Of a stretch of DNA of 64,000 nt, positions 1,241 through 32,900 are shown piece after piece. Position 1 is the stretch's first letter. Every line of letters starts with the position of its first letter. The position numbers were made by a program, and so were the translations under genes. Source of the stretch: Vitis vinifera (lineage: Eukaryota; Streptophyta; Magnoliopsida; Vitales; Vitaceae); contig NC_081810.1 of the NCBI RefSeq assembly GCF_030704535.1, positions 6,644,501 through 6,708,500 on the forward strand, in the 5' to 3' direction. The notes beneath the pieces were generated by a model that saw only the letters and a program-made list of their open reading frames with translations, did no database searches and was not told the DNA's origin.

Positions 1241-3477
1241 ACAGTCAAGATCAAGGTTCGAGTCATCAACAGAAGATTTCGGGTTTACGAGACTTTTGCG
1301 ATTTCAATCTTCATCTTCACCATGTGGATTTGATTCAGGAACATCCAAATATAAGGTATGGTTTTTGTTAGCCTTTTCTAAATCCTTTTGAAGTATAAAA
1401 ATGTTATTTTTCCGTTGTGCATAAGGTTTAGAAAAAGTTTAAGATAGTTATGCATGTTCTTAACTTGATCCAGACTTGGGAAACAGAGAGATCTAGGTTT
1501 TTCCCATCAGAAAGATGTTGTGTCGAGTGACTAGAATCCTTTGAAGTCAGTTGAACATGATGACAATTTACAAAATATGATGGGCAAAGCTACTAGCTTG
1601 AAATGAGGTTAATCCGTAACATCAACTGTAAAAGAATGAGGTTCGAGTTGATGAACAGGAGAAGGCCACACGGCCCAGCCACTCTCATTACAGTTCCGTC
1701 GCTTTACCACCTTAGTGCAATCAAAGAAGCTCAATTTTTTGTGTGGTTGTGAGCTGTGGGTTTATTAAATATTATTAATAATTTTTGTAATTTTCATGGC
1801 TCAAATCCTTTTTTTTTTTTTGGTTGTAGGCAACTCAAATCCATTTATTAGTTTAACATTTAAGTTTTTGTTTTTGAGCTTTAATATTTAATATTTTTAT
1901 CTTTTATGTTTAATATTTAATAATTTAATTTTTTGTTGATTTGTACTTTTTGTTTATTAAAATTTGTTATCCTCATTTATGTATTGCATATTAAAATTTC
2001 AATTTATTGAAATTTCTGTTAATTTATTTATTGCAATTGAAATTTGAATTATTTCAATATTTTATTTGTTTTTAAAAAAAAATTAACTTTTAATAATATA
2101 TAAAATATATATTTTTTACGTCACTAGTTCTACTACAGTTTGATCGTCGATCCAACCAGTGAATCATGAACATGTAACTTTTTTGGTTCAATGACTAGTC
2201 CGATTCTAAAAATATTGACCCCAACTCAATGTGGGTTGGGCTTGGGCCAAAGCTCAAGCAACCTAAGCCTTCGAGTTTTAATATTTCTATAATATTTATA
2301 ATGTATATTATCTTATATAATAGTATTCATTTTCTTTTTAAAAATTTAAAGAAAAAAAATCAAATGATATTATATCATATACTTTTTTTAAATGTATATA
2401 AATTTATGCTTATTTTTTTGTTTCTATCTTGAAATTTTGTCATATTTGCTATTAAAATTTTATATAAATATATAGATTTAAAAAAAAAAAAAACTTATAG
2501 ACGGATTTTGAATTGTGCAACCCAACCAACCTGAACTCAATCCGAACTTAGAGAAATGGGTTTGAATTGAGTACATTGGGTTGGGTTGAGTTTAGGTTGA
2601 TTGTTTTTTAATTTGTGTTAAGTTTGGATTAATCATCAATCCAACCAACCTATCCAAATTGCAGCCATAAGCATTAGTATATATAAAAAACCATATTTCT
2701 TTGGATCTATAGATAAGTTTAAGGATAAAAACATTAATGATTTTGTTATCTTTGAGTTCTTTGTTCATTAATGTCAAATCAACTTTTAGTAAATCTCAAT
2801 TTTGGTGATTATAAAATAAGGTATAGGACTAACAATTATATTTCAAGTGTGATTCTGTAAGATTTTTTTAAAGCAACAATCAATCACACATTAAGTTAAA
2901 AATGGAATATATAAAAAAAAAAAAGAATTTAAAGGGATGGTATTTGAAGTTTTATTTATTTATTTAAGATTTCTATATGTTTGACTGTGATCACAATAAA
3001 AGCACGGCATTAATAATATCATAAGATAAGCAATAAAAATATACTAAATATTAGACATATATAATTTAATAAAAAAAAACATGTTTTAAAATCTTGTATC
3101 CCAAAATATCTTTACATATATAATTTCGACTATTCAATTTATCTTTAGGATTTATTTAACATCTTGTATCATAAAAATAAAAAGACAAAATTTCATTCAT
3201 ACCCTCTAAGATTTTGTATAAATTCATTCAACCACGGTTTCGTACAACAACTACTACTATAGATGTAATTTGTTTATAAAATTTATTTTTTAGAGTATTG
3301 TTAAACTCACTTACCTCAAATTTTTCTATTTAAATATTTCTAAAAAATAAATTTAGAAAATGAATTACGTCTATAGTAGTAATTATTATGTCAACAGAAA
3401 CTTTAATACAAATAATATTAGTTAAAAAGTACAAAAATAAAAACAATTCATACAAAAATGCAAAATGTTTTAACATG
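1241..3477. other. AT-rich intergenic DNA, no gene seen
   Basis: Only short random frames are present. Around 2219-2246 and 2567-2650 there are related GGTTGGG/CCAACC-rich stretches, partly in inverted orientation, that may mark the ends of a decayed small transposon. Homopolymer A and T runs are common. Nothing here supports a functional gene. Confidence 0.5.
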
Positions 3478-3711
3478 GTTCAACCAACCATACTTACATT
3501 TACAAACGATAGAGAATCATTTTACTATACATAAAGAATATTACAATAACACAAATCAAATACAACTATTGAATTATCAAACATCCTATGTTTTTTTTTG
3601 TATCTACACCCTAAATCATGTGTCATTTTCTCCATCGGGTATCTCCTATTTTTCTTCATATCTCTATCAATTCCGTATAGATTTTATAAACTCGTTTTTA
3701 TTTTATAACAT
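3478..3711 (+). repeat. Tandem duplicate unit that preserves the empty insertion site
   Basis: A unit of about 234 bp begins at 3478 and restarts at 3712: both starts run through a TTTACAAACGA block to AAAGAATATTA. In unit 1 the sequence continues unbroken through ATTAC at 3540-3544. In unit 2 it stops at ATTAT (3776-3780), where the LTR element begins. The missing second part of unit 2 reappears after the element: 11769-11847 resembles 3611-3688 in direct orientation. Unit 1 therefore acts as an internal record of the site before insertion. Confidence 0.65.
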
Positions 3712-3780
3712 GGTTTGGCCAATCACATCTATATTTACAAACGAGAGAAAACCAATCCATTATACCATAAAGAATATTAT

Positions 3781-3937
3781 TGTAGACATAAAAAAAATTA
3801 GTGGATTAAATTACCACTAATTTGGTCTTCAAAATGAATAAATTTAAAAACAAAAATAAAATAAAATAAAATCCTTTTATGGATAAGTTTCCCTAATCTC
3901 CAACTATAAAAATGATAATAATAATAATAATAAGAAA

Positions 3938-3975
<38 letters not shown>

Positions 3976-4541
3976 CTTGTTGGTAAAACCTTCCGAAAAA
4001 TAAAATTTGCTAAAATTAAGGAACTAAATCCCTTGAATTAAGCAACTAAAATTCAAGAATATGAAATTCAAATTCTCTATCTTCACCTATAAATAAAGGT
4101 GTCTTCTATCAAGAATAGGGGATAAGAAATTTAGAAATCAGAAAAATCCAGAAAAGAAAATCATAAGGAGAAAATCCAAAGGTAACTTCGTATGGGAAAA
4201 TTTGCTTCACCAAAAAAAAAAAAATTCATCAAATCTTTCTGCAAGTTCAGTAAACGCAAAAAAAAATTGTTATATGCGTTCTTCGTCATTCAATAAGGTC
4301 ATTTGGGAATAAGCCACTTGTGGCCCTCAATTGATCTTCGAAATCAAGAAAACGTCATTGTCATCTTCCAAAGTGTGATCAAGGCAAAAGAATCAGAGGA
4401 GAAATATTCTTTTGGAAAGAATATTATTTTTGAGATTGTACCCACAATATTTTTAATTTCAATAAATATTTTGTTCGCATTATTTTCCTATTTTGTTTGG
4501 CTAATTTCGTAGGACCAACATTTTACGAAATTGTGGGTACA
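3781..4541 (+). repeat. Left LTR (about 761 bp)
   Basis: It starts TGTAGACATA and ends GTGGGTACA, the usual TG...CA form. It holds an imperfect palindrome near 3798-3822 (TTAGTGG...CCACTAA) and an ATT/AAT microsatellite at about 3915-3975. The same sequence appears inverted at 10963-11695, including the palindrome, the microsatellite and the block around CATTCAATAAGGTCATTTG. The short open frame at 4303-4512 lies wholly within the LTR and is not a gene. Confidence 0.7.
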
Positions 4542-6626
4542 AATTTTTGGCACATCCGATGGGACGTCTCTGCCTCTCATATCTTTTGTTAGAAGATTGA
4601 TCTCTACTACGTCGATGACACCTAAAAGAACTCAAGTTGTGCATGTCAACAAGGGCAATGACAAGATCGTCATTGCACAATCAACACACGATGCCGCTAC
4701 GAGCCCCATGACTCGTAGCAAAGCAAAATCAACATCTTCACTCTCAACAAAACAAACAAGTGAGTTTGCCTATTTGCTAAAACCAGTAAGAACACATGAT
4801 GAGCACCAACCACTCATCACCTGGGCCTCTCTGGGGGCAAAGAGCCATAGTCCTCGTAGGAAGAGAAAACTCTCTTCAACACTAAGAGACTTTGGGGATA
4901 AATCTCCTTGCTCGATTACCGATGCCAACTCTAGCACCAGATCGCCAACTAGAATGTCAAAGGAGGAAAACTACTCCAATCGTTTCAACTCTTTTACTTC
5001 TCATTTCTCGATGACTATGCCGGTAATGGAAAACGACACTACATCCGTAAAGGAACAATTAATAGAGATGGCTCGTGCCATCGCCAAACTCACTAAAACA
5101 ATTGAGGAGAAGGATATGCAGATAGCCTCCATCGTAAACAAGGTTGAGACACAAGTACAAAATACGGGTGAGTCAAGTCAAAGACTCAACCACCTTTCGA
5201 ATATTGCATCTCATCTCAATGATGTACCACATACGTATAGGACAATGCAAGTCGAGAGACAATCGGCGAAATCTGCCTCAGTGGTGTCATTATCTGTCCA
5301 ACAACTTCAAGACATGATAACTAACACCATTAGAGCGTAGTATGGTGGACCCTCACAGAGTACGCTCATGTACTTTAAACCTTACACTAAGAGGATTGAT
5401 AACCTACATATGCCTGTGGGTTATCAACCTTTAAAATTTCAATCATTTGACGGGAAAGGAAATCCACAACAACATGTTGCCCATTTCGTTGAAACTTGTA
5501 ACAATGTAGGTACAGATGGTGACTTATTAGTTAAACAATTCGTTCGTTCTCTCCGAGTGAATGCTTTCAATTGGTACATAGACCTTGAACCTGAGTGTAT
5601 CAATAGTTGGGACCAAATGGAACGTGAATTCCTCAACTGTTTCTATAGCACCCAACAAACTGTAAGTATGATGGAATTACTACTAGTAATCAATGGAAAG
5701 ATGAGCTAGTTGTAGACTATATCAACAGTTGGCGTTCCTTAAGCCTTGAGTGCAAAGATAGATTATCTGAGGTATCAGCCGTGGAGATGTGCATTCAAGG
5801 AATGCATTAGGGTCTCCTATACATTCTTCAAGGGATACGACCTCGTACCTTTGAAGAATTAGCTACTCGAGCACATGACATGGAGCTCAACATAACCAAC
5901 CATGGTGCTAAAAAGGACCTTATCATTGACCAACAAAGAGAAAGACACAATGGGAAAGCAAGTGATAAGAATTCAATAAAACCCATCCAGGAGTCAATGA
6001 CAGTAAATGCGACTCCTATCAAAATCTCAGCACGAGATAAAAAGAAAGAAGTAAAAGAGGCTAGACCAACCTAGGAAAATGAGAGGTGTTGGTTCACCTT
6101 GAAGAAATTAGAGGAGAAAAAGTATCATTTTCATGACTCCGATGTGCCTAGCATGTTGGAAGACTTGCTACAGAAAAAGGTTATTGAGCTACCTGAGTGT
6201 AAGCGTCCAGAATAAATGGGTCGTGTTAATGATCCGAACTATTGTCATTACCATCGAATCGTTAGTCACCCGGTAGAGAAATGTTTCATCTTAAAAGATC
6301 TCATAATGAAACTTGCAAAACAAGGAAGAATCCATTTGAATTTTGATGAAGTAGTAGAGTCAAATCATGCTACAGTCATATTTGGGTCTCTCGATCCTGT
6401 TTCGTTACATGTTCCACCTAAGACATTGGGAGCATGCGTTGGTACTATCCAATGCAAGTCACTGAAACCAAAGCAAACACAAGTGTCATGTCAAGACAAC
6501 CTTCTTCACTTCAATTTTGATAATGAATCAATGTCGTATAACGAAGGAGGTTGGACATCGGTAACACGAAGAAGACCTTGTGAGAAGCAAGAATCTCATC
6601 CATACACAAATCTTCATAGAAAATAA
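4531..6626 (+). pseudogene. Ty3/gypsy gag polyprotein remnant
   Basis: The reading starts just after the LTR. An N-terminal part contains a coiled-coil-like stretch (about 5065-5160, MARAIAKLTKTIEEKD), followed by a retrotransposon gag core at 5368-5700 with the family pattern of a short Gln-His-Val block, an aromatic-rich NWYIDLEP stretch and W..M..EF..CFY. It continues after a frameshift near 5690 to [17 protein letters not shown] (about 5842) and a Cys-His motif near 6240 (C-x2-H-x4-H-x4-C). In-frame stops occur near 5338, 5808, 6072 and 6213. The protein would package element RNA and cannot be made intact. The region after 6630 continues to about 7050 as a spacer-like frame that is also present in the second copy at 10111-10961. 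Confidence 0.8.
4548..4565 (+). other. Primer-binding-site-like sequence
   Basis: TGGCACATCCGATGGGAC lies six bases after the proposed LTR end. Plant Ty3/gypsy elements commonly have TGGC-starting tRNA-complementary sites at this position. The match to a particular tRNA 3' end is degenerate, so only the position and the TGGC start support it. Confidence 0.4.
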
Positions 6627-7014
6627 CAACATAAGTAAAATATTCATCGACATGCGAAGAAAAAAACAAGAAAATAAACCTAAAAAAAAAACAAGCGATT
6701 GTACAGGTTGATAACCTATTGGTACAAAAGCTCATCACCCCTATCACCTTAGGAGAATACTTCCCTCCGAAGTTCGTCAATAAAGGAATGGTGACATCAA
6801 CTCATATGGTCTCTTGTCATGAGATTTTGGAAGAAGATGAGTTAGGTAAGGTTGAAGAAAACGTTTTTGGTGCAGAGCCAAGCAAAACCAAGGAAGATGA
6901 TGAAGTAGTAGCAAACCTACAGTGCTTACCCTCGCTCTTCAATATCCATGAAATGTTACAACTTCTTGAGCAAACACGAATTGCATTAATTCAGATACAT
7001 AGAAATCCATCACT

Positions 7015-8487
7015 CTATGCCATAAAAATAAATGGGGCAAAACAATTTTGAAGTAGTAGTAAGAACTTCCTTACTAGGATTACGCACTCTGATCCACCAA
7101 TCACATAAGCCTTGGTGACTAAAAACTCTTCAAGACTATGATAGTCTGGTATAGTAACTTTAGAGTAGGTACCAAGTTTGGCGCATGACTCCCAATGTTG
7201 ATACACCGTCTCTAAAGTTCCAATGCGAAAAATCTCTGGCAAACCCCTTGGAAGGTCTTGAGGATACCCAAACTGCCTAGAAAACCGATGAGGATAATAT
7301 GGTTGGATCACCTGATGGTTACCTTATTGCAAAGATAAATAACTAGAGTGAAAACTTATGAGATAAGAAGTTTTGGTAACACTAATAGATTCATTATCAG
7401 TCTGCACACGCTCCTTGTGGTGCAATGCTAAGTGGTCCAATTTTACGCTTTTGCAAGACATTATCAAAGCCTGAGCTTGCAAATCATCAAAACACTTAGC
7501 AGAAAACTCGCCAACGTAATAAGTCATCCGTGGGGGATGGTTCCAAGAAGGAAAAATGAAATGGGTGTCGAAATATTCACCTAACCATTCGTACAAGTAA
7601 TGAATAGGAAAAATAGATGCATTAGTCTCAGGTTTCGAAGAACAAGCGATTTTATTTAAGCCGTTGTAAATGCTTGCCAACACCGGAATAGCAAGGCTAA
7701 ATGTCTTGCATTGAGCCATTCTACTAGCTACTTTGAAGACTTCAGGACAAATTAAATTGACATCCCCAAGGAAAAACAAACTTACATAACCAACATGCTA
7801 AGAAAGTAGCTAAGTAAGTCTCTTTAACATCTGTCTCAGCTATGCCAAGGTTGTCAAAAACTTCCATCTCCGACTGAGTACGAGATTTAATAGGATCAAT
7901 TTCCCCGGAGGGGTTATGAGTCTCCTTAGGCCTCTGCACCTTATTCCTTGTACTTTTCTTTGGAGGTTTTGCATACTTCATAGAGCCTTTGTACCAAAAT
8001 GATACCCAAGAGGCTAACTTGACTGAAGACTTTTCTTTCGTCTTAAAAAAAATTCAATGATATACAAGGAATAAGTTTCGACAACATGGTGGGAGTGAGG
8101 ACTTTGTTGCATCATTAGATAACTCTTCCACGCTCGGTACCATCTCATCATAAAAAAATCCACTGATGGGTAGTCCAACAATACAATACAAGTCCCAAAG
8201 AGAGATGGAAACCTCTCCAATGGAAGTATGCAAGGTGTTAGTGGTAGGACACCAACGTTCACAAAAGACCCTAATCATAGAGGCATGATGATTATAGTTG
8301 AATAAGGATGCGAAAATAGCTTCATAAAGCTTACATCCTTTAAGAAATGGTCTATGCCGACCCAATACCTTCTCAACCCATTCCCAATATCCTTCAGTAA
8401 AGAAAAAATTCCCAAGTACTTTGTATGAGCTTCCTCATTTGGCTTCTCTGTCACGAACACGAGAACCCAACAATCCAAATTCATCAT
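7015..8487 (-). pseudogene. Antisense ORF with plant mobile domain (PMD-like), broken
   Basis: On the strand opposite to gag, fragments in three frames line up as one protein. First (8365-8054) comes a segment with FCERWCPTTNTLH, a GEVSISLWDLYCIVGLPISG block and a downstream acidic stretch. Next (7981-7742) is a basic linker and LATFLACWLCKFVFP. Then (7779-7324) comes a segment with PEVFKVASRMAQ, FSLAIPVLASIYNGLN and a HYLYEWLGEYF block, and finally (7311-7015) YPHRFSRQFGYPQD. This order matches the plant mobile domain found in MAIL1/MAIN-type proteins and in antisense ORFs of some LTR elements. Frameshifts near 8040 and 7760 and a stop near 7325 inactivate it. The role of such ORFs in retrotransposons is unknown. 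Confidence 0.7.
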
Positions 8488-8826
8488 GAACTTCAGTAGT
8501 AGTTGGGTGAGAATAATTCAACAGTAGAACATCAGAAACAGATTTCACCTTATTAAGTTTTGAATTGCTAATATTTGTAAGCTTGCAAGATGCGACTCGG
8601 GACTAGGAAGAAATGTGTAATGGGTTATTTGTCATTGGCAATGACAAAAATTGAAGGTCAGTAAGTGACTTATGCACTGACAAGGTAGTCCTTCAAAATC
8701 TTCACTATCATCCTCAAGAATGATTACGGTCTTCTCCTTGAAACATTTGAAGAACGCCATCCTACACAAAAAAAAAAAGGTAAAAAGATAGATGAATAAA
8801 ATATGAGTCTAAGTTTTTAGATGTTA

Positions 8827-9451
8827 CTATGCATTTAAGTCAGACCAATTCGCATGGGTGAAGACCTTAGCACTCAAGTCGTATTAACTATTAAGTGTTG
8901 AAAGTACAACACCGTGTAGCATCAGGGTCATAACTTGTTTGCATAGATACCAATTATTATTCTGATTTTAATTAAATGTTAAAACTTGAATATCACTATG
9001 CATTCAAGTCAAACCAATTTACATGAGTGAAGACTTTAGCACATAAGTGTCAAAATACAACACCGCGTAGCATCAGGGCTATAACTTGTTTACATAGATA
9101 CCAAATATTATTGCAAGTTTTAATTAAATATTAGAACTTGAATACCATTATGCATTCAAGTCAAGCCAATTTGCATGAGTGAAGACTTTAGCACATAAGT
9201 GTTGAAAATACAACACTGCGTAACATTAGGGCTATAGCTTGTTTGCATAGATACCAAGTATTATTATGGTTTTAATTAAATATTAAAACTTGAACACCAC
9301 TATGCATTCAAGTCAAGCCAATTTGCATGGGTGAAGACTTTAGCACATAAATGTCGAAAATACGACACCGCTTCGCGTCAGGGCTACGACTTGATTACAC
9401 GAGGGTCAAATTTCAAATATTCATATTTTTTATGGATATTTAATTTTATTA
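8827..9451 (+). repeat. Minisatellite, four units of about 152 bp
   Basis: Units start at 8827, 8996, 9148 and 9300, each with a form of CTATGCATTCAAGTCAAGCC. Each continues with a GTGAAGACTTTAGCAC block, a block beginning ACACCG and ending CATCAGGG, and CTTGTTTGCATAGATACCAA. Spacing is 169, 152 and 152 bp, and the last unit decays after about 9400. There is no coding potential. It lies after the antisense ORF, where Tat/Ogre-like elements often carry variable tandem repeats. Confidence 0.85.
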
Positions 9452-9506
9452 AAGATTCCCCTCAAGTATTAAGGTAATTTTAAAAATTAATTAATTAATT
9501 AATTAA

Positions 9507-10107
9507 TTAACTCTTTCGCGCTCTATACCATCTCATCACAAAAAAATCCAATGATGGGTAGTCCAGCAATACAATACAAGTCCCAAAGGGAGATGGAAAC
9601 CTCTCCATTGGAAGTATGCAAGGTGTTAGTGATAGGACACCAACGTTCGCAAAAGGCCCTAAAAACTTAGACCCATATTTTATTCATCTCTCTTTCTATC
9701 TTTTTTTTTTTGTGTAGAATAGCGTTCTTCAAATGTTTCAAGGAGAACTATAACTCACCATTCAATAAGGTCATTTGAGAATAAGTCACTTGTGGCCCTT
9801 GATTGATCTTCGAAATCATGTATATAGGGACGACAAATTGGAAGAGGACTGAAAGTTTAAAGCAATAAGGAAAACGAATTAGAAGATGATTCAAAGTGTA
9901 CAACAAGTATGAAAACAAAGTGGAATTTGAAAAAAAAGTCGTAAAGAAATATTTTTTTGGAAATTGTTGGACAAATAATGATACCACTGAGGCAGATTCC
10001 GCCATTTGTCTCTCAACTTGCATTGTCCTATATGCATGTGGTGCATCATCGAAAGAAGATGCAACATTCGAAAGGTGGTTGAGTCCTTGACTTGACTCAC
10101 CCGTATT
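9507..10107. repeat. Scrambled block of copied element segments
   Basis: Four pieces of the same element are joined end to end. 9507-9662 copies 8120-8274 (antisense ORF) in direct orientation. 9659-9748 is the reverse complement of 8732-8820. 9759-9818 copies part of the left LTR (4287-4346) in direct orientation. 9961-10107 is the reverse complement of gag bases 5161-5309. About 140 bp between 9819 and 9960 matches nothing else I noticed. All pieces are diverged by scattered substitutions. Open frames here come from the mixed pieces. Confidence 0.75.
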
Positions 10108-10110
10108 TTG

Positions 10111-10961
10111 TTAAAAAATCTTATAATGAAACTTGCAAAACAAGGAATAATCCATGTGGATTTGGATGAAGTAGTAGAGTCAAATTATGTTATAGTCACA
10201 TTTGGGTCTCTCGATCCTATTTCGTTACATATTCCACCTAAGACATTGGAGGCATGGGTCAGTACTATCCAATGCAAGTCACAGAAATCAAAACAAACAC
10301 AAGTGTCATGTTAAGACACCCTTCTTCACTTCTATTTTGATAATGAATCAATGTCGTATAACGAAGGAGGTTGGACAATAGCGACACGAAGAAAACCTTA
10401 TAAGAAGCAAGAATCTCATCCAGACACAAATGTTCCTAGAAATGAACAACGTAAGCAAAATATTCATCGACATGCGAAGAAAACAATGAATAAAATAAAC
10501 CTAAAATAAAACAAGCGATTGAACAGGTTGATGACCTACTGGTACAAAAGTTCATCACCCCTATCACCTTAGGAGAATACTTCCCTCCGGAGTTCTTTAA
10601 TAGAGGGATTGTGACATCAACTCATATGGTCTCTTGTCATAAGATTTTGGAAGAAGAAGAGTCAGGTAAGGTTGAAGAAAATGTTTTTAGTGCAGAGCCA
10701 AGCAAAACCAAAGAAGATGATGAGGTAGTAGCAAGCCTACAGTGCTTACCCTCGCTCTTCAATATTCATGAAATGTTACAACTTCTTGAGGAAACATGAA
10801 TTGCATTGATCCAGATACATAGGAATCCATCACTCTATGCCACAAAAATAGAGAGGGCAAAATGATTTTGGAGCAATAGTAAGAATTTCCTTACCAGGAT
10901 TACGCACTCTGATCCACCAATCCGCATAAGCCTTGGTGACTGAAAACTCTTCAAGACTATG
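10111..10961 (+). pseudogene. Second copy of 3' gag region and gag/antisense-ORF junction
   Basis: It is collinear with 6291-7136: the shared run begins TTAAAAGATC/TTAAAAAATC followed by TATAATGAAACTTGCAAAAC and ends at the TTCAAGACTAT block. It carries the same transition from gag-side sequence into the end of the antisense ORF near 7050-7080. The frame holds MKLAKQG, LDEVVESN and PPKTLEAW as in copy one, with new stops. It is cut off at 10961, where the inverted LTR begins. Confidence 0.8.
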
Positions 10962-10962
10962 C

Positions 10963-11695
10963 GTACAAATTTCGTATATTTTGGTCCTACAAAATTAGTA
11001 AAACAAAATAGGAAAATAATGCGAACAAAATATTTATTGAAATTAAAAATATTGTTGGTACAATCTAAAAAATAATAATATTCTTTCCAAAATAATATTT
11101 TCCCTTTGATTATTTTGCCTTGATCATACTTTGGAAAATGACGATGATGTTTCTTAATTTCGAAAATCAATCGAGGGCCACAAGTGACTTATTCCCGAAT
11201 GACCTTATTCAATGACAAAGAACATGTGTAGCAGTTCTTTTGTCGTTTACCGAACTTGTAGGGAGATTTGATAATGCTCTTTTGTTTGTTATGAAACCAT
11301 TTTTCCCGAACGAAATTACCTTTAGATTTTCTCCTTAGGATTTTTCCTTTTTGAATTTTTTCTGATTTTTGAATTTCTTTTTCCCTATTCTTGATAGAAG
11401 ACACCCTGAGTGAAGATAGGGAATTTGAATTTCAAATTCTCGAATGTTAGTTGCTTAATTCAAGGGATTTAGTTCCTTGATTTTAGTAAATTTTCTTCTC
11501 CAGAAGGTTTTACCAACAAGATAATAATAATAATAATAATAACTTTCTTATTATGATTATTATTATTATCCTTTTTATAGTTGGAGATTAGGGAAACTTA
11601 TCCATAAGAGGATTTTATTTTTTTTATTTTTAAATTTATTCATTTTGAAGACCAAATTAGTGGTAATTTAATCCATTAATTTTTTTATGTCTACA
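10963..11695 (-). repeat. Right LTR, inverted relative to the left
   Basis: The reverse complement aligns with 3781-4541 over its whole length, from TGTAGACATA to a GTAC-containing U5 end. It includes the block around ATTATTTTCCTATTTTG, the TTCAATAAGGTCATT run (here CGGGAATAAG after it) and the AAT/ATT microsatellite (11521-11568). The outer end is the U3 end, as in the left LTR. Two minus-strand open frames inside it are translations of the LTR, not genes. Confidence 0.75.
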
Positions 11696-11867
11696 ATTAC
11701 ATAAGACAAAAACTATATATAAGTTCAAAAAACATCTTATATTTCTTAACTCCTTATATTTACATTACAAATCACGAGTCATTTGCTCAACCAGGTATCT
11801 GTTATTCTTCTTCGTATCTTTATCTATCTTGTATAATGATTATAAGCCGATCTCCATCTTATAATTT

Positions 11868-14800
11868 TTTTCCCTCATATCATAAAATATTTATAGAAAT
11901 ATTTCCAATAACTTTTTGTATTCCATAAATATATCATCCATAAATATAAATATATAAAATATTTTCTACAATATCATTTCAAAAATGAAGCTATGTTAAT
12001 TAGGAATTTAGTACATTTTCTAATATTACTAACACATCAAATTTGAAAAATTAATTACAGCTAGTTATATTATAGAGAAACCTACATCAATATTTCTGTC
12101 AACATATATACACTTTGAGTTTATGGATGTCTTTGAAAACTATTTTGAAAAATAATTTTTTATTTTAAATAATCTAAAATAATTATTTTTAAAATCTTCT
12201 ATTAAAAATTTTATTTATTGAAATCATTTTAAAAAATAAAACACAATATGTTCTAAAATTAGTCACGTTACATAGTTGAATTAACATTATAAAAAAATGA
12301 GACCACTCATAGGGTAAATATGTACAATTTTTATATCTTAATCTCATGTTTTATATCCTTATTTTGTATGATTTTTTTATTATTATTTTAGGCAGATTTA
12401 TTTATATTATAATTCAATAATTCTATAATTTTTATTCTAAGAATTTTAATCTATAATTTTGTATTTTTTTTTAATGAAATAAATGTGCTGTCCATAAATG
12501 TGCTGTCCAACCACTAAAGAGATGAGTAAATTACCCATCTGCTCTGGAAAATTGTACCAACCTGACTCGTTATTTCCTCTTTTTATGCTTTCTCTGAGGC
12601 TGTTCAATGCGAACCGACAAGTTACAGCTGCCTTCCCATCTGCCGTGGCATGTTGATAGATAAGTTTGAACCAACTAATTGATTAGCATATAAGGTAAAT
12701 CCTAGCACATGTTTTAAAAGCTCAAGATAATACAAATGAAAAATAGGATTGAGGGTGGCATATCGGATAGTTGCAACTAATGGTCTAAATGCACTTCAAC
12801 AAGGTGTTGAAAGCCTTTTAGATTGATAATGATTTTATGAATGGCAGTGCCACAAGTGTTTTCTGGTTCCACGTACTCCTTGTCACCCCATATCATCTTG
12901 ATTATATATATATAATTAAATTTTAAAAAAATTAATTTAATTTTTTAAAAATTACTTTTCACTAAAATAAGTTAAAAATTTGTAATTTTGTAAGTATCTA
13001 TATAATATATTTATTTTTAATGTAATTGAAACTTTTTAAATTTCATTTTTTTCATAAAAAGTTTTAATTTTTTTATTTTTTTAAAAATAGATAGAGCACG
13101 GTTTAATGGGAACGGAAATTATTTTGAATAAATTGGACAAAATGGAGGTGGGGATGACCCGACCTAAAACCGCATCATTGTCATCTCTATACAATTATTT
13201 TTGCACTAAAAACTTAAATCAGTTATCATGCCTAATTCTCAAATTGTTAACCTTGGTGGTTAATAGGTGAGCTAGCCATTTGGAGAGTGATCCGCCCGAT
13301 GGACAGGCTTGATTGGTCGAGTTTACAGCTCAACCAACGACTACTACCAAAATGATGCTAATTTTGACCTCAAAATAAAGGAAAACAAAGGCTAAACACC
13401 TACGCACCTTTTTGAAAAGAAAAAAATTAAATTGATTAGGACCACTTTAGGATTAGGTGTTTCCTTAAAATTTATAATAATTTATTTCAATTATGAAAAT
13501 ATTTTGGATTAATATAGGTGCTTAATATGCATAAAAGAATATATAACCCTAAGAAGTCTTCGTACCATTGAAGTTTTTATGTTCTTATTTAAAAACTGTT
13601 TTTGAAAATAATTTTTTAAAAATTGTTGTATAATTTTTTGTAAAATAAAAGTTTGTTTGAAAATTTAAAATATTTTTAATTCGTTTTTTATATCTTTAAA
13701 TATATTTTAAAAATAACTTTTATATATAGCGCATTATTTTTAATTCATACGTGTTTGTATATGTTTTTTAAAATAACTATAAAAAAAACTATTTAAAAAA
13801 TGTTTTTTTTAAACACCATATTTTTTGCTCATAATAACAAAAAATATAAAACATTTTTTTAGTTATCAAATATATTTTTCTATTTTTTTATTTTAAATAA
13901 TAACAAACCGTTTTAAAAAATAACTGTCAAATAAACCTTATATTTCCATCTAAGTCTTCATTTGACTCTTGGCTTCATAATTTTCCTTAAAGACGGAAAA
14001 ATAAATCATCAATTAACTTCCAAGTTAATAATCAATCACATGAATAATTTCATAATTCAATATTATTTAATATTTTCACATACAAGAAGTGAGTCATGTT
14101 TTCTTATCATTGTAATATAACATGTTATTGAATCTTATATCCTAAGATATCAGATAAAATCTTATATCATAAGATGTGCAATAAAATCTACTATAGATTT
14201 GAATTTCATATGATGTGACATTTTTTTAAAAATGGAATAAAGGCGCTCCTTGATAAGTGTGAAGGACACGGCCCGTCGATGGGGCATTGACTGGTTGTTT
14301 GCTTAATGAGATGATATAATAAAATTGGAAAATAGAGAGATATTATATTCACGGGACTAAGCATATTACATGACATTCATGCCATATCAAGGGAAGAGGC
14401 TTGGGTCACACTTTGACACATGAAATATTCATGCTCTTGTATTCCTCAACGACAAGTTTCCTTCTCCTCCACATGACAAGACCAATGACAAGAAATTTAT
14501 TCCTTTAGTTATCGCTAGTAAAATTTAATATTTATTATATAATTTAATTTGATTTTAAGTTAAATTATATTTAAGTTGTTAGTTTAAAACTTATTATTTA
14601 ATTATTAAAATTATTTGATAAAATTAATTTAAAATATATTTTAAATCATCATATATTTATTTTTATAAATTATAATTAAAACATAAAAGGTTGAGGATCA
14701 ATAAAGGTGGTGAAGTAAAGGAGATCTTGAAAATAATTAGGACAAATGAAAGTTACGTTAATTGGTTTTACTTATTACTTAAAGTCATTTTTTATTTTAA

Positions 14801-29900: not shown

Positions 29901-32900
29901 TCCAAAAAAAGAAAAAAGAAAAAGTGATACAATTATTTGTGAATTTAAATTTTAATGTTTTAAGAAGTAATGAACCTCTATGGAAAATAAATCTCTATGA
30001 TACACTAAAGAGTTTCTTTGCCTATTAAAAAATAAAAAACTAAAGAGTTTCTCTTTCTTTTCTTTACTTTTGTTTCCATGGTTTACTATTTCTGTTCCAA
30101 ATCCAAATTGTGTGTATAAAAAACTTGTCTTCAAGATTGAATAATATTAATGCTCATGACATAATATCACTTTGTGTAACTTTAACTTTGATAATTCTGA
30201 AAGTATTCTGGGTTTTCAGTGTTTCCGTGTCTAAATGCTACATACACTTCAAGGATTGAAAGGTTAATGAAGTATTAGAAATAGGATGTAGTGTGGGAAC
30301 TTTAAATTTGGAAATTTGTGTTATGATTACATGATGTTATAGCTTGAAGCTCCTCCTAGGAGTTCATACTTTATAGGAAGTTCCTTGATCTCAAATCAAT
30401 GTTTGTAAAAATTAAGTCGCATAAACTGAGGGAACAGTCTGAAAATAACAAATAACCATTTGAGGAATTTAATTGATTTCATGTTGATATTTATTAGATA
30501 TTTCCAACCAATTAACAGATAAGTAAATTACCCATCTGCTCTGGGAAATTGTACCAACTTGACTTGCTGTTGCCTCTGTTTTATACTTTCTGAGGCTGTT
30601 CAATACGAGCTCACCAATTGTAGCTGCCTTCCCACCTGTCATGGCATATGGCATATTGATAGATAAGTTTGAACCAACTAATTTGTTAGCATATAAGGTA
30701 AATCATTTGGCTGAAATGGTCAGTGAAATATTCGGTTATTACTGGCTTAATTATCCTACTCTGTTGTCTCAGCTAAACTCATATCAGCATTATATTTTTC
30801 TACCTAATTCTATATTGAAACCATGGATGGTAAAATGGCTATGTATCTGTTGCTCCCCAGCCATGCTTCTACTCATTTATTGGTTGTAATTTCTGTTAAA
30901 CAAAAAGAGCAGGCTGTTATTACAGAAAAATATGGTGCCCATGGGTGTCATGTTGGTGAGGATGGTGGGCTTGCTCCAAACATCTCCAGGCAAGTTTTTC
31001 TTCTTCTTCTTCACCGGATCTTGCTCATCTGCCCATTTTAGTAACAAACCCATCATACTGTTTGAGGATATATATTTTAGATAGAAGCTGCAATCTGCAT
31101 AACTCATAAATCCATTTTTATATGTTAGTTAAATATGGTTGAGGTCTGGCTGCATTTGTATCCAGACCTGTGGAAACATGATAAAATTTCTCTAAGAGTG
31201 GTTGGTATTAATATTTGATTATCTTTTATTTCTGCTGGCAGCATTAGAGAAGGTTTGGATCTAGTAAAAGAAGCTATCGGCAGAACAGGATATAATGAGA
31301 AAATAAAGATTGCAATCGATGTCGCTGCTACTGATTTCTGCATAGGTGATGAGTTCTTTCCTGTTAAATGCTTTTATGCTATTACTTCAGAACCATGTTG
31401 GCACCATTATATAATAACAATTGGAGGATGTCACTTGGAACAATATTAGTGATTGTACTCGATTTTATGGATACGGATTTCTGTAGCCACAATCAAAAGC
31501 ATTTCCATCATTCCCATCAAGGGCATAGTGATATTGATCATGCATGTATGCTTTAGTTGGGATGCATTATGCAGTGGTTAAGGCTATGTGTCTGGACATG
31601 TATATTCCTTGCTTATGAATGATGAGGTTTGGCTCTGATGCAGGTGCAAAGTATGATTTGGACTTCAAATCCCCAAACAAATCAGGGCAAAATTTTAAGT
31701 CGGGAGAGGATATGATTGAGATGTACAAAGAACTTTGTAATGGTATATCACCCTTTCTTTACATGTTTTTTATTGTCTTTTGCTGCATCATGTTTTGAGT
31801 CATGCATCAAACAGGTTTAATAACCTTATTGTTGTCTCTTCTTTTTTTTTTTTTTTTTTTCCTTGTTCCTTCTTTTTGGTGGGGATGGGGTACTTAGACT
31901 ACCCAATTGTATCAATTGAAGATCCATTTGACAAAGAGGACTGGGAACATATCAGGAATTTTTGTGGTCTTGGAATTTGCCAGGTGTGTCGCATATACCT
32001 TATTTCTTGCTATTTTGGCATCAATCTGTTTGCAGTTTCTATCCAGATTAACTTCCTCTTTAGAAGGCATGAATGCTGAAATACAGGTTTCCCCAAGTTG
32101 ATGGCCTATAATTTGCAAAAATAAAATGACCAAACATGGAATCCTAAGATGATTTCTTGTCCATCACTTTGAAGGGTTCAAATTGTAAGTGGGGTAACTG
32201 GAGTACAGTTAAGTGATTGTCTGATTACGCTCATTTAGTGGAGTTGCCTCTTGACTAGTACGGGTCTCAAGAGGATCAATGGCCATATAACTTATCCAGA
32301 ACTGCAGCTTGACCCTTAGATGCAATTGGGAGCTTTTCTGCCTTTTTGTGTCTGTCCTTTATGATCAGACAGATTTATTTAGGAGAGCTGTTTTGCAGGT
32401 TGTTGGCGATGACTTGTTGATGTCAAATCCTAAACGTATTGAGAGAGCAAGACGTGAATCCACTTGCAATGCTCTTCTTCTCAAGGTATCTTGCTGATCT
32501 TTGGATGAACTTTATGGCTTTCTTTGTCAATGTTCTTTTTTTGATAATGTATTGCCATGTGAACTGGTTTTATCTTTGAATTTCTGTCCACATATTGTTC
32601 ATCAAATCATACCTTCTTTGTAAGAAAATAAGAAATTGAATTAGTGTTATAGAAATACAGGTGTCCTATTCAAATCATTGCCCTTTTCAAAGAGCAGGAC
32701 AACCCTTTTGGCACAAAGACAACTATTTACTTCCCAAACCTTGTTTTTCTCAGTGAAGAATTAGTAATTCATAGTCTTTGCTGCTTCTGTTTTTCTGGAT
32801 GTAAAGGTTAAGAATGTTTAATAACCACCCTGCAGGTATTGTTAAGAAGGAAATCTCAATGATGTATGTGTTAAGCTGATCTAATCTTTACTGAACATAA

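Follow-up and report, generated by a model that had tools for sequence, protein, structure and literature searches.

An inverted-LTR retrotransposon insertion in grapevine with a U3 terminus at both outer ends

Complex long terminal repeat (LTR) retrotransposons formed by template switching between co-packaged RNAs have been described in Triticeae, rice, and maize, each present as a single integration with a 5-bp target-site duplication (TSD) (Sabot and Schulman, 2007; PMC1950507). They have three LTRs, of which the outer ones are highly similar, and two internal regions. In Arabidopsis, copies from a burst of Onsen are mosaics of family members, mostly pairwise, which has been attributed to two RNAs per particle; the word “inverted” is absent from the main text of that report (PMC5668417). 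LTRs inverted to each other are described in two other settings: the inversion circles produced by autointegration of Ty1 and retroviruses (PMC4751563, PMC2644782), and the DIRS-1 tyrosine-recombinase retrotransposons, for which they are the normal state, accompanied by an internal complementary region (PMC5633606). The element considered here lies at positions 3781–11695 of a 64-kb window of the Vitis vinifera genome (the whole stretch analysed, positions 6,644,501–6,708,500 of NC_081810.1 in assembly GCF_030704535.1). It belongs to an LTR retrotransposon family that has gag and, in antisense, a plant-mobile-domain (PMD) gene, but its two LTRs are inverted to each other and both of its outer ends are U3 termini.

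Like the elements of Sabot and Schulman, it has flanking TSDs, with one integration around an element probably fused from more than one template. Unlike them, it has two inverted LTRs at background similarity, U3 at both ends, and patches in both orientations between; instead of an internal third LTR there is just a 64-nt internal LTR fragment. With autointegration circles it shares LTRs inverted to each other and, if the reading given below is right, formation before chromosomal integration; those products are circular and non-productive, whereas the window element is linear, integrated, flanked by a TSD, and has two U3 ends. It is a rare accident, a variant of the template-switching retrotransposon insertions, and not a new kind of element. 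Its interest is as a natural case, with an empty site and a TSD, of an integrated LTR element bounded by U3 on both sides. Among the best 10–30 open-licence papers listed per literature search, in which authors' wording may differ from the phrases searched, none showed a plant LTR insertion ending in U3 on both sides.

The left LTR (3781–4541, plus strand) has its U3 outward and is followed by a PBS-like motif, as are other 5′ LTRs of the family. The right LTR (10963–11695, minus strand) is inverted, also with U3 outward, and is complete except that its U5 ends about 4 nt early. BLAST pairs 3779–4532 (+) with 11697–10968 (−), and 3781–4541 aligned with the reverse complement of 10963–11695 gives 87.3% ungapped identity over 727 columns. 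Both outer ends read TGTAGACATA, and the LTRs have the form TGTAGACATA...TACA found in the family; U3 and U5 termini have TGTA/TACA in common. A preliminary description, made from the sequence alone, had proposed this plus/minus arrangement and a U3 terminus at each outer end, and the alignment and the terminal motifs support it in both respects. Both insertion junctions therefore consist of the U3 terminus, in place of the usual one U3 and one U5. The inner border of the right LTR, at about 10962, either lacks the last 4 nt of U5 or has 1–3 nt in common with the neighboring piece (p5, below).

Elsewhere in the family, 5′ LTRs are followed by a PBS-like motif, AATTTYTGGCAC..., presumed to be a primer-binding site (PBS), and 3′ LTRs are preceded by ...CTTGAAGTGGGGGCATT or close variants, taken as the polypurine tract (PPT). 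Neither motif accompanies the right LTR of the window element: its U5 side lacks a PBS, and the family PPT is absent from its U3 side. Having no direct 3′ LTR with the family PPT, the window copy is a rearranged member of its family.

It is also an old copy, which arose by one integration event that duplicated 5 bp of a precisely defined empty site. The duplication reads ATTAT on the left (3776–3780) and ATTAC on the right (11696–11700). The preliminary description had recognized it from the flanks, but a match of at least four in five has a chance of 0.040 in flanks this AT-rich, so that ATTAT/ATTAC is by itself weak evidence; the paralogous empty sites are what bear the claim out. The element landed in an AT-rich repeat that is dispersed in the genome and partly tandem (window 3465–3780 and 11696–11903). 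One tandem copy, at 3465–3699 (plus strand), runs uninterrupted across the element's position and serves as a local empty-site paralogue (3465–3543 is 77.5% identical to 3700–3779, and 3546–3708 is 67% identical to 11696–11864). The whole assembly (495.6 Mb in 21 contigs) was also searched with the joined flanks. Among the best 40 of 310 candidates two were the window's own flanks, and all of the other 38 places align straight across the joined junction; there were three further partial rows, one of which stops before it. The closest empty site among the matches listed, C17:3337099–3337444, is 91% identical and reads GAAT-ATTAC-ATAAGAC; the other 37 listed copies are about 69–73% identical. 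ATTAC occurs once at the C17 site, as it does in the unit at 3465–3699, and both copies of the duplication therefore began as ATTAC, the left one having mutated from C to T. A single integration follows from the agreement of the repeat unit, the joined-flank matches, and the single ATTAC of C17. For comparison, seven direct-LTR copies of the family were fetched: a TSD was readable by eye in six (five perfect 5-bp duplications and one matching at four of five positions), while the seventh (C10b) lacks its 5′ LTR end and has no readable TSD.

The same results bear on whether two independent, opposite insertions were fused by deletion, or the assembly is in error. Family LTRs are common (at least 72 places), which would help either event, but the flanks are contiguous at the empty site and there is one TSD; the repeated pieces within the element are 85–93% alike rather than identical as in a misjoin, and the window contains no N. 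We give these explanations almost no credence. Neighboring insertions or a solo LTR are ruled out by the empty site, and the 5 nt on the U5 side mismatch ATTAC.

Between the LTRs, the left 5.7 kb are collinear with other copies except for an internal deletion at 7048/7051 (plus strand), where three other copies hold about 2.3–3 kb and one about 6.9 kb. From 9502 to the right LTR the element is scrambled, a feature missing from the preliminary description. The first piece, p1 (9502–9662, plus strand), is a copy of 8114–8274 (91.3% identity). It is joined, with about 4 nt of microhomology, to p2 (9659–9747, minus strand), an inverted copy of 8732–8820 (93.3%). A filler of about 7–11 nt without an explained source follows (approximately 9748–9754), and then p3 (9755–9818, plus strand), a 64-nt LTR fragment corresponding to 4283–4346. 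The next stretch (9818–9963, plus strand) is ordinary family 3′ region in normal orientation, matching what precedes the 3′ LTR in other members. After it come p4 (9960–10111, minus strand), an inverted copy of 5157–5308 (89.5%), and p5 (10111–10961, plus strand), a copy of 6291–7140 that includes the 7048/7051 deletion junction (90.3%) and adjoins the right LTR. Joins between pieces overlap by 0–6 nt, as judged by eye.

This interior is difficult to reconcile with the palindromic (snap-back) cDNA of one molecule that the preliminary description had put forward. Such a cDNA would give inverted LTRs, outward U3 ends, and a TSD, and a maximum-likelihood (ML) tree does weakly pair the two LTRs. 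However, the right LTR is joined directly to the 850 bp of p5 in direct orientation, not to inverted PBS and gag sequence, so that among the element's ends the LTRs alone mirror each other, and the inverted repetition stops with them; nor is the kinship of the LTRs, measured by distance, above background. The palindrome was rejected on the orientation of p5, and we consider it very improbable. What stands of the earlier proposal is that one integration event used two U3 ends and left a 5-bp TSD, and that an aberrant cDNA is the easiest way to account for this; it is the word “palindromic” that has to be given up.

Kinship between the LTRs was assessed by comparing the distance within a pair with its mean distance to other family LTRs, with bootstrap, the truncated C7 pair being left out. 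All six intact pairs (90.7–92.6% identity) are closer than background, with an excess of 0.020 to 0.041 and bootstrap intervals above zero. For the window pair the excess is −0.002 (95% bootstrap interval −0.016 to 0.015), and its divergence is 12.7% against 8.3% for the pooled intact pairs (Fisher P = 0.0002; for this and the following divergence tests, difference counts were entered from the identities of the LTR and piece comparisons). The absence of kinship by distance in the window pair, where six of six intact pairs show it, makes two templates likely; that the two LTRs come from two sources is thus likely from these comparisons, although not proven.

Piece p5 and the window's own 6291–7140 behave differently. 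They are sisters with support of 100/98 in a tree of eight rows, and differ by 9.7%, not significantly different from the pooled divergence of intact-copy LTRs (8.3%, P = 0.20), in keeping with p5 having been copied roughly when the element inserted. In a search for the element's junctions (best 40 of 577 candidates, two of them the window's own copies), no alignment at the 38 places elsewhere continued more than 19 nt past the deletion at 7048/7051, while the window's two copies run through it. The template from which p5 was copied carried the deletion seen in the left part of the element. None of the window's junctions was found at those 38 places, so there is no sign that the scrambled form was copied on, and a replicating subfamily with this arrangement was rejected on the same result.

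The origin we favor, and consider probable, is template switching or fragment joining at the cDNA stage, followed by the action of integrase on two U3 ends. The co-packaged templates involved were probably two, and the element's cDNA would have been scrambled before integration. In outline, a particle would have contained two different family RNAs, and the plus-strand strong-stop DNA (U3-R-U5) of one template would have missed its transfer to the PBS. Instead, its 3′ end would have primed synthesis on plus-sense element sequence near 7140 or been joined to it; several more template switches, or joins of cDNA fragments, would have followed, before synthesis ran along the other template to its U3 end. 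Both ends of the product would have been U3, and its insertion would have proceeded normally with integrase provided in trans. Read from the right end, the lower strand consists of U3-R-U5, antisense 7140 to 6291, further pieces, and the left part as far as its own U3 end; U3-R-U5 followed by antisense 7140–6291 is the order expected from misdirected strong-stop DNA. The right LTR reaches both natural termini or stops no more than about 4 nt short of them, which is what strong-stop DNA would give; its U5 joins internal DNA without a PBS, and beside its U3, where the family PPT would be expected, there is target DNA. Olsen and Swanstrom reportedly described in 1985 defective retrovirus DNA with a U5-internal join lacking a PBS, formed when plus-strand strong-stop DNA jumped to a wrong internal site. 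Within the aberrant-cDNA reading we infer the strong-stop route as a further step, and end joining of cDNA fragments fits equally well.

The U5-internal join is also what recommends autointegration, in which the U5 end of the cDNA would have attacked internal element DNA and the product would later have been opened and integrated. A nearly complete U5 end is indeed joined to internal sequence, and autointegration is said to yield inverted two-LTR forms, but the products described are circles (PMC4751563), and six further joins and the two LTR sources would be left without explanation. We think this origin highly improbable.

A more serious competitor is a normal U3/U5 integration with a later double-strand break in its 3′ part, repaired from dispersed family copies by multi-invasion or microhomology-mediated repair, the inverted LTR having been rejoined at the terminal TACA. 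The preliminary description had argued that an inversion after integration would have had to break precisely where LTR and target meet; this is sound for inversion, but a repair inside the LTR escapes it, since the U3 and U5 termini share TGTA/TACA and a join within these 4 nt would keep the TSD intact. For the same reason the outer end of such a repair is less unlikely than it seems. Microhomology and filler at the joins would suit repair as well, and for p1–p4 and the right LTR some other copies match at least as well as the window's own sequence does (for the right LTR, the window's own copy ranks 13 of 30). Against this, the repair tract would have to begin within about 4 nt of U5 and end within about 5 nt of the LTR/target border. 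Piece p5, moreover, came from a template with the element's own deletion and is diverged like intact-copy LTRs rather than being younger, an argument whose weight depends on the age of the insertion itself. On balance we regard later repair as unlikely.

Several observations weigh against scrambling and two-template copying at the cDNA stage. The ML tree pairs the two window LTRs, with weak support (48/74), so that they could be sisters; in the same analysis five of the six intact pairs have bootstrap values of at least 86, while C3a is not paired in the free tree. The window LTRs have five shared derived sites, within the range of intact pairs (3–10) and at the 95th percentile of the background (mean 2.1, 95th percentile 5). 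Divergence of the LTRs compared with that of p5 gives P = 0.064, and the long LTR branches could reflect faster mutation or an older insertion. Pieces p1–p4 are too short to trace, the window's own copy ranking 2 of 6, 4 of 8, 3 of 30, and 9 of 14, respectively. The filler at approximately 9748–9754 suits end joining as well as reverse transcription. Finally, the dating of the scrambling to the cDNA stage is indirect, and the strong-stop step is one that we infer.

Should the cDNA origin be correct, integrase in a plant cell is able to bring two U3 ends together, and a failed second strand transfer can still yield an integrated product. Such copies would escape annotation that relies on direct LTRs, and LTR divergence is an unsafe guide to their age, because one molecule need not be the source of both LTRs.

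Other inverted pairs were sought in the family with four LTR queries (the left and right window LTRs, L011, and L028), taking the best 40 of 476–533 candidates for each; short rows were dropped from the resulting collection, except for a 368-nt arm on C19. Among the matches listed there are 16 neighboring LTR pairs within 15 kb, of which 14 are direct and two inverted, a sample that is not neutral because two of the four queries are the window LTRs themselves. The prevalence of direct pairs, with the 5-bp TSD, sets this family apart from DIRS-1 elements (PMC5633606). No Pfam match to a tyrosine recombinase was found among the seven window and ten relative open reading frames (ORFs) scanned.

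Both inverted pairs have U3 at the right outer end. The second (L038) is C19:27106981(+)/27108034(−), spanning 27106981–27108401 with about 0.4 kb between the arms. These are 93.8% identical over 289 nt pairwise and 92.5% on the family alignment (background median 89.0%, 95th percentile 92.0%), but one of them is closer to L013 (93.9%), and a common molecule for the two arms is therefore not claimed. The right outer end is an exact U3 terminus; the left arm stops at U3 nt 104, where a different dispersed repeat lies next to it, and neither the rest of its U3 nor a TSD was found in about 7 kb to the left. With the C19 flanks joined as a query, 38 other places (best 40 of 128 candidates) match the left flank only, ending at query positions 210–251, where the border is at 250; the missing left end has probably been overwritten by another repeat. 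It is a tentative idea, which we would not call probable, that plant retrotransposon particles can make U3-U3 cDNA when strong-stop DNA of one packaged RNA misses the PBS and is extended on plus-sense element sequence, that integrase inserts it normally, and that this family may have used the route more than once.

The LTR searches also returned three near-identical LTR copies about 37.5 kb apart at C13:7911670, 7949231, and 7986786 (L027, L026, and L029), two of them identical over the LTR; they are probably a recent tandem segmental duplication.

Outside the scrambled part the element has the gene order of its family, gag followed by the antisense PMD gene. A PBS-like start and a decayed gag region occupy 4542–7048 (plus strand; ORFs 4531–5340, 5368–5709, and 6216–6626) and are collinear with other copies. 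The ORF at 5368–5709 matches Pfam Retrotrans_gag below the cut-off (E = 2e-4), and two other copies give gag above it. The decayed PMD gene is at 7324–8365 on the minus strand; its ORFs, 7324–7779 and 8054–8365, account for Pfam PMD matches in the window with E-values of 3e-4 (below the cut-off) and 4.4e-11, and a relative has a longer match. Extra antisense ORFs are relatively frequent in plant LTR elements (PMC7264820). A tandem array of 3.3 copies of a 152-bp unit (8892–9399, plus strand) is also found in relatives.

The Pfam scan covered seven ORFs of the window and ten from three relatives. Among the latter, two gave gag above the cut-off, two PMD above and one PMD below it, one a reverse transcriptase, and four nothing above the cut-off. 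No pol domain of the element's own was found in these 17 ORFs, and the family therefore looks non-autonomous, as far as this limited set of ORFs indicates. The reverse-transcriptase ORF (L031:3456–3920; Pfam RVT_1, E = 2.5e-17) sits in a stretch, 2430–6052, that does not match the window element, and it possibly represents a nested insertion. In L034 and L040, the region matching window 6291–7048 is about 21–25% diverged from the other copies compared, and this gag-end region may represent either a distinct subfamily or a recombinant.

Two further repeats lie in the window outside the element. An imperfect palindrome of about 140 bp, 71% self-complementary, is present in the left flank (3246–3387), and 12506–12701 and 30503–30704 form a direct repeat of about 200 bp, 83% identical, with its copies 18 kb apart.

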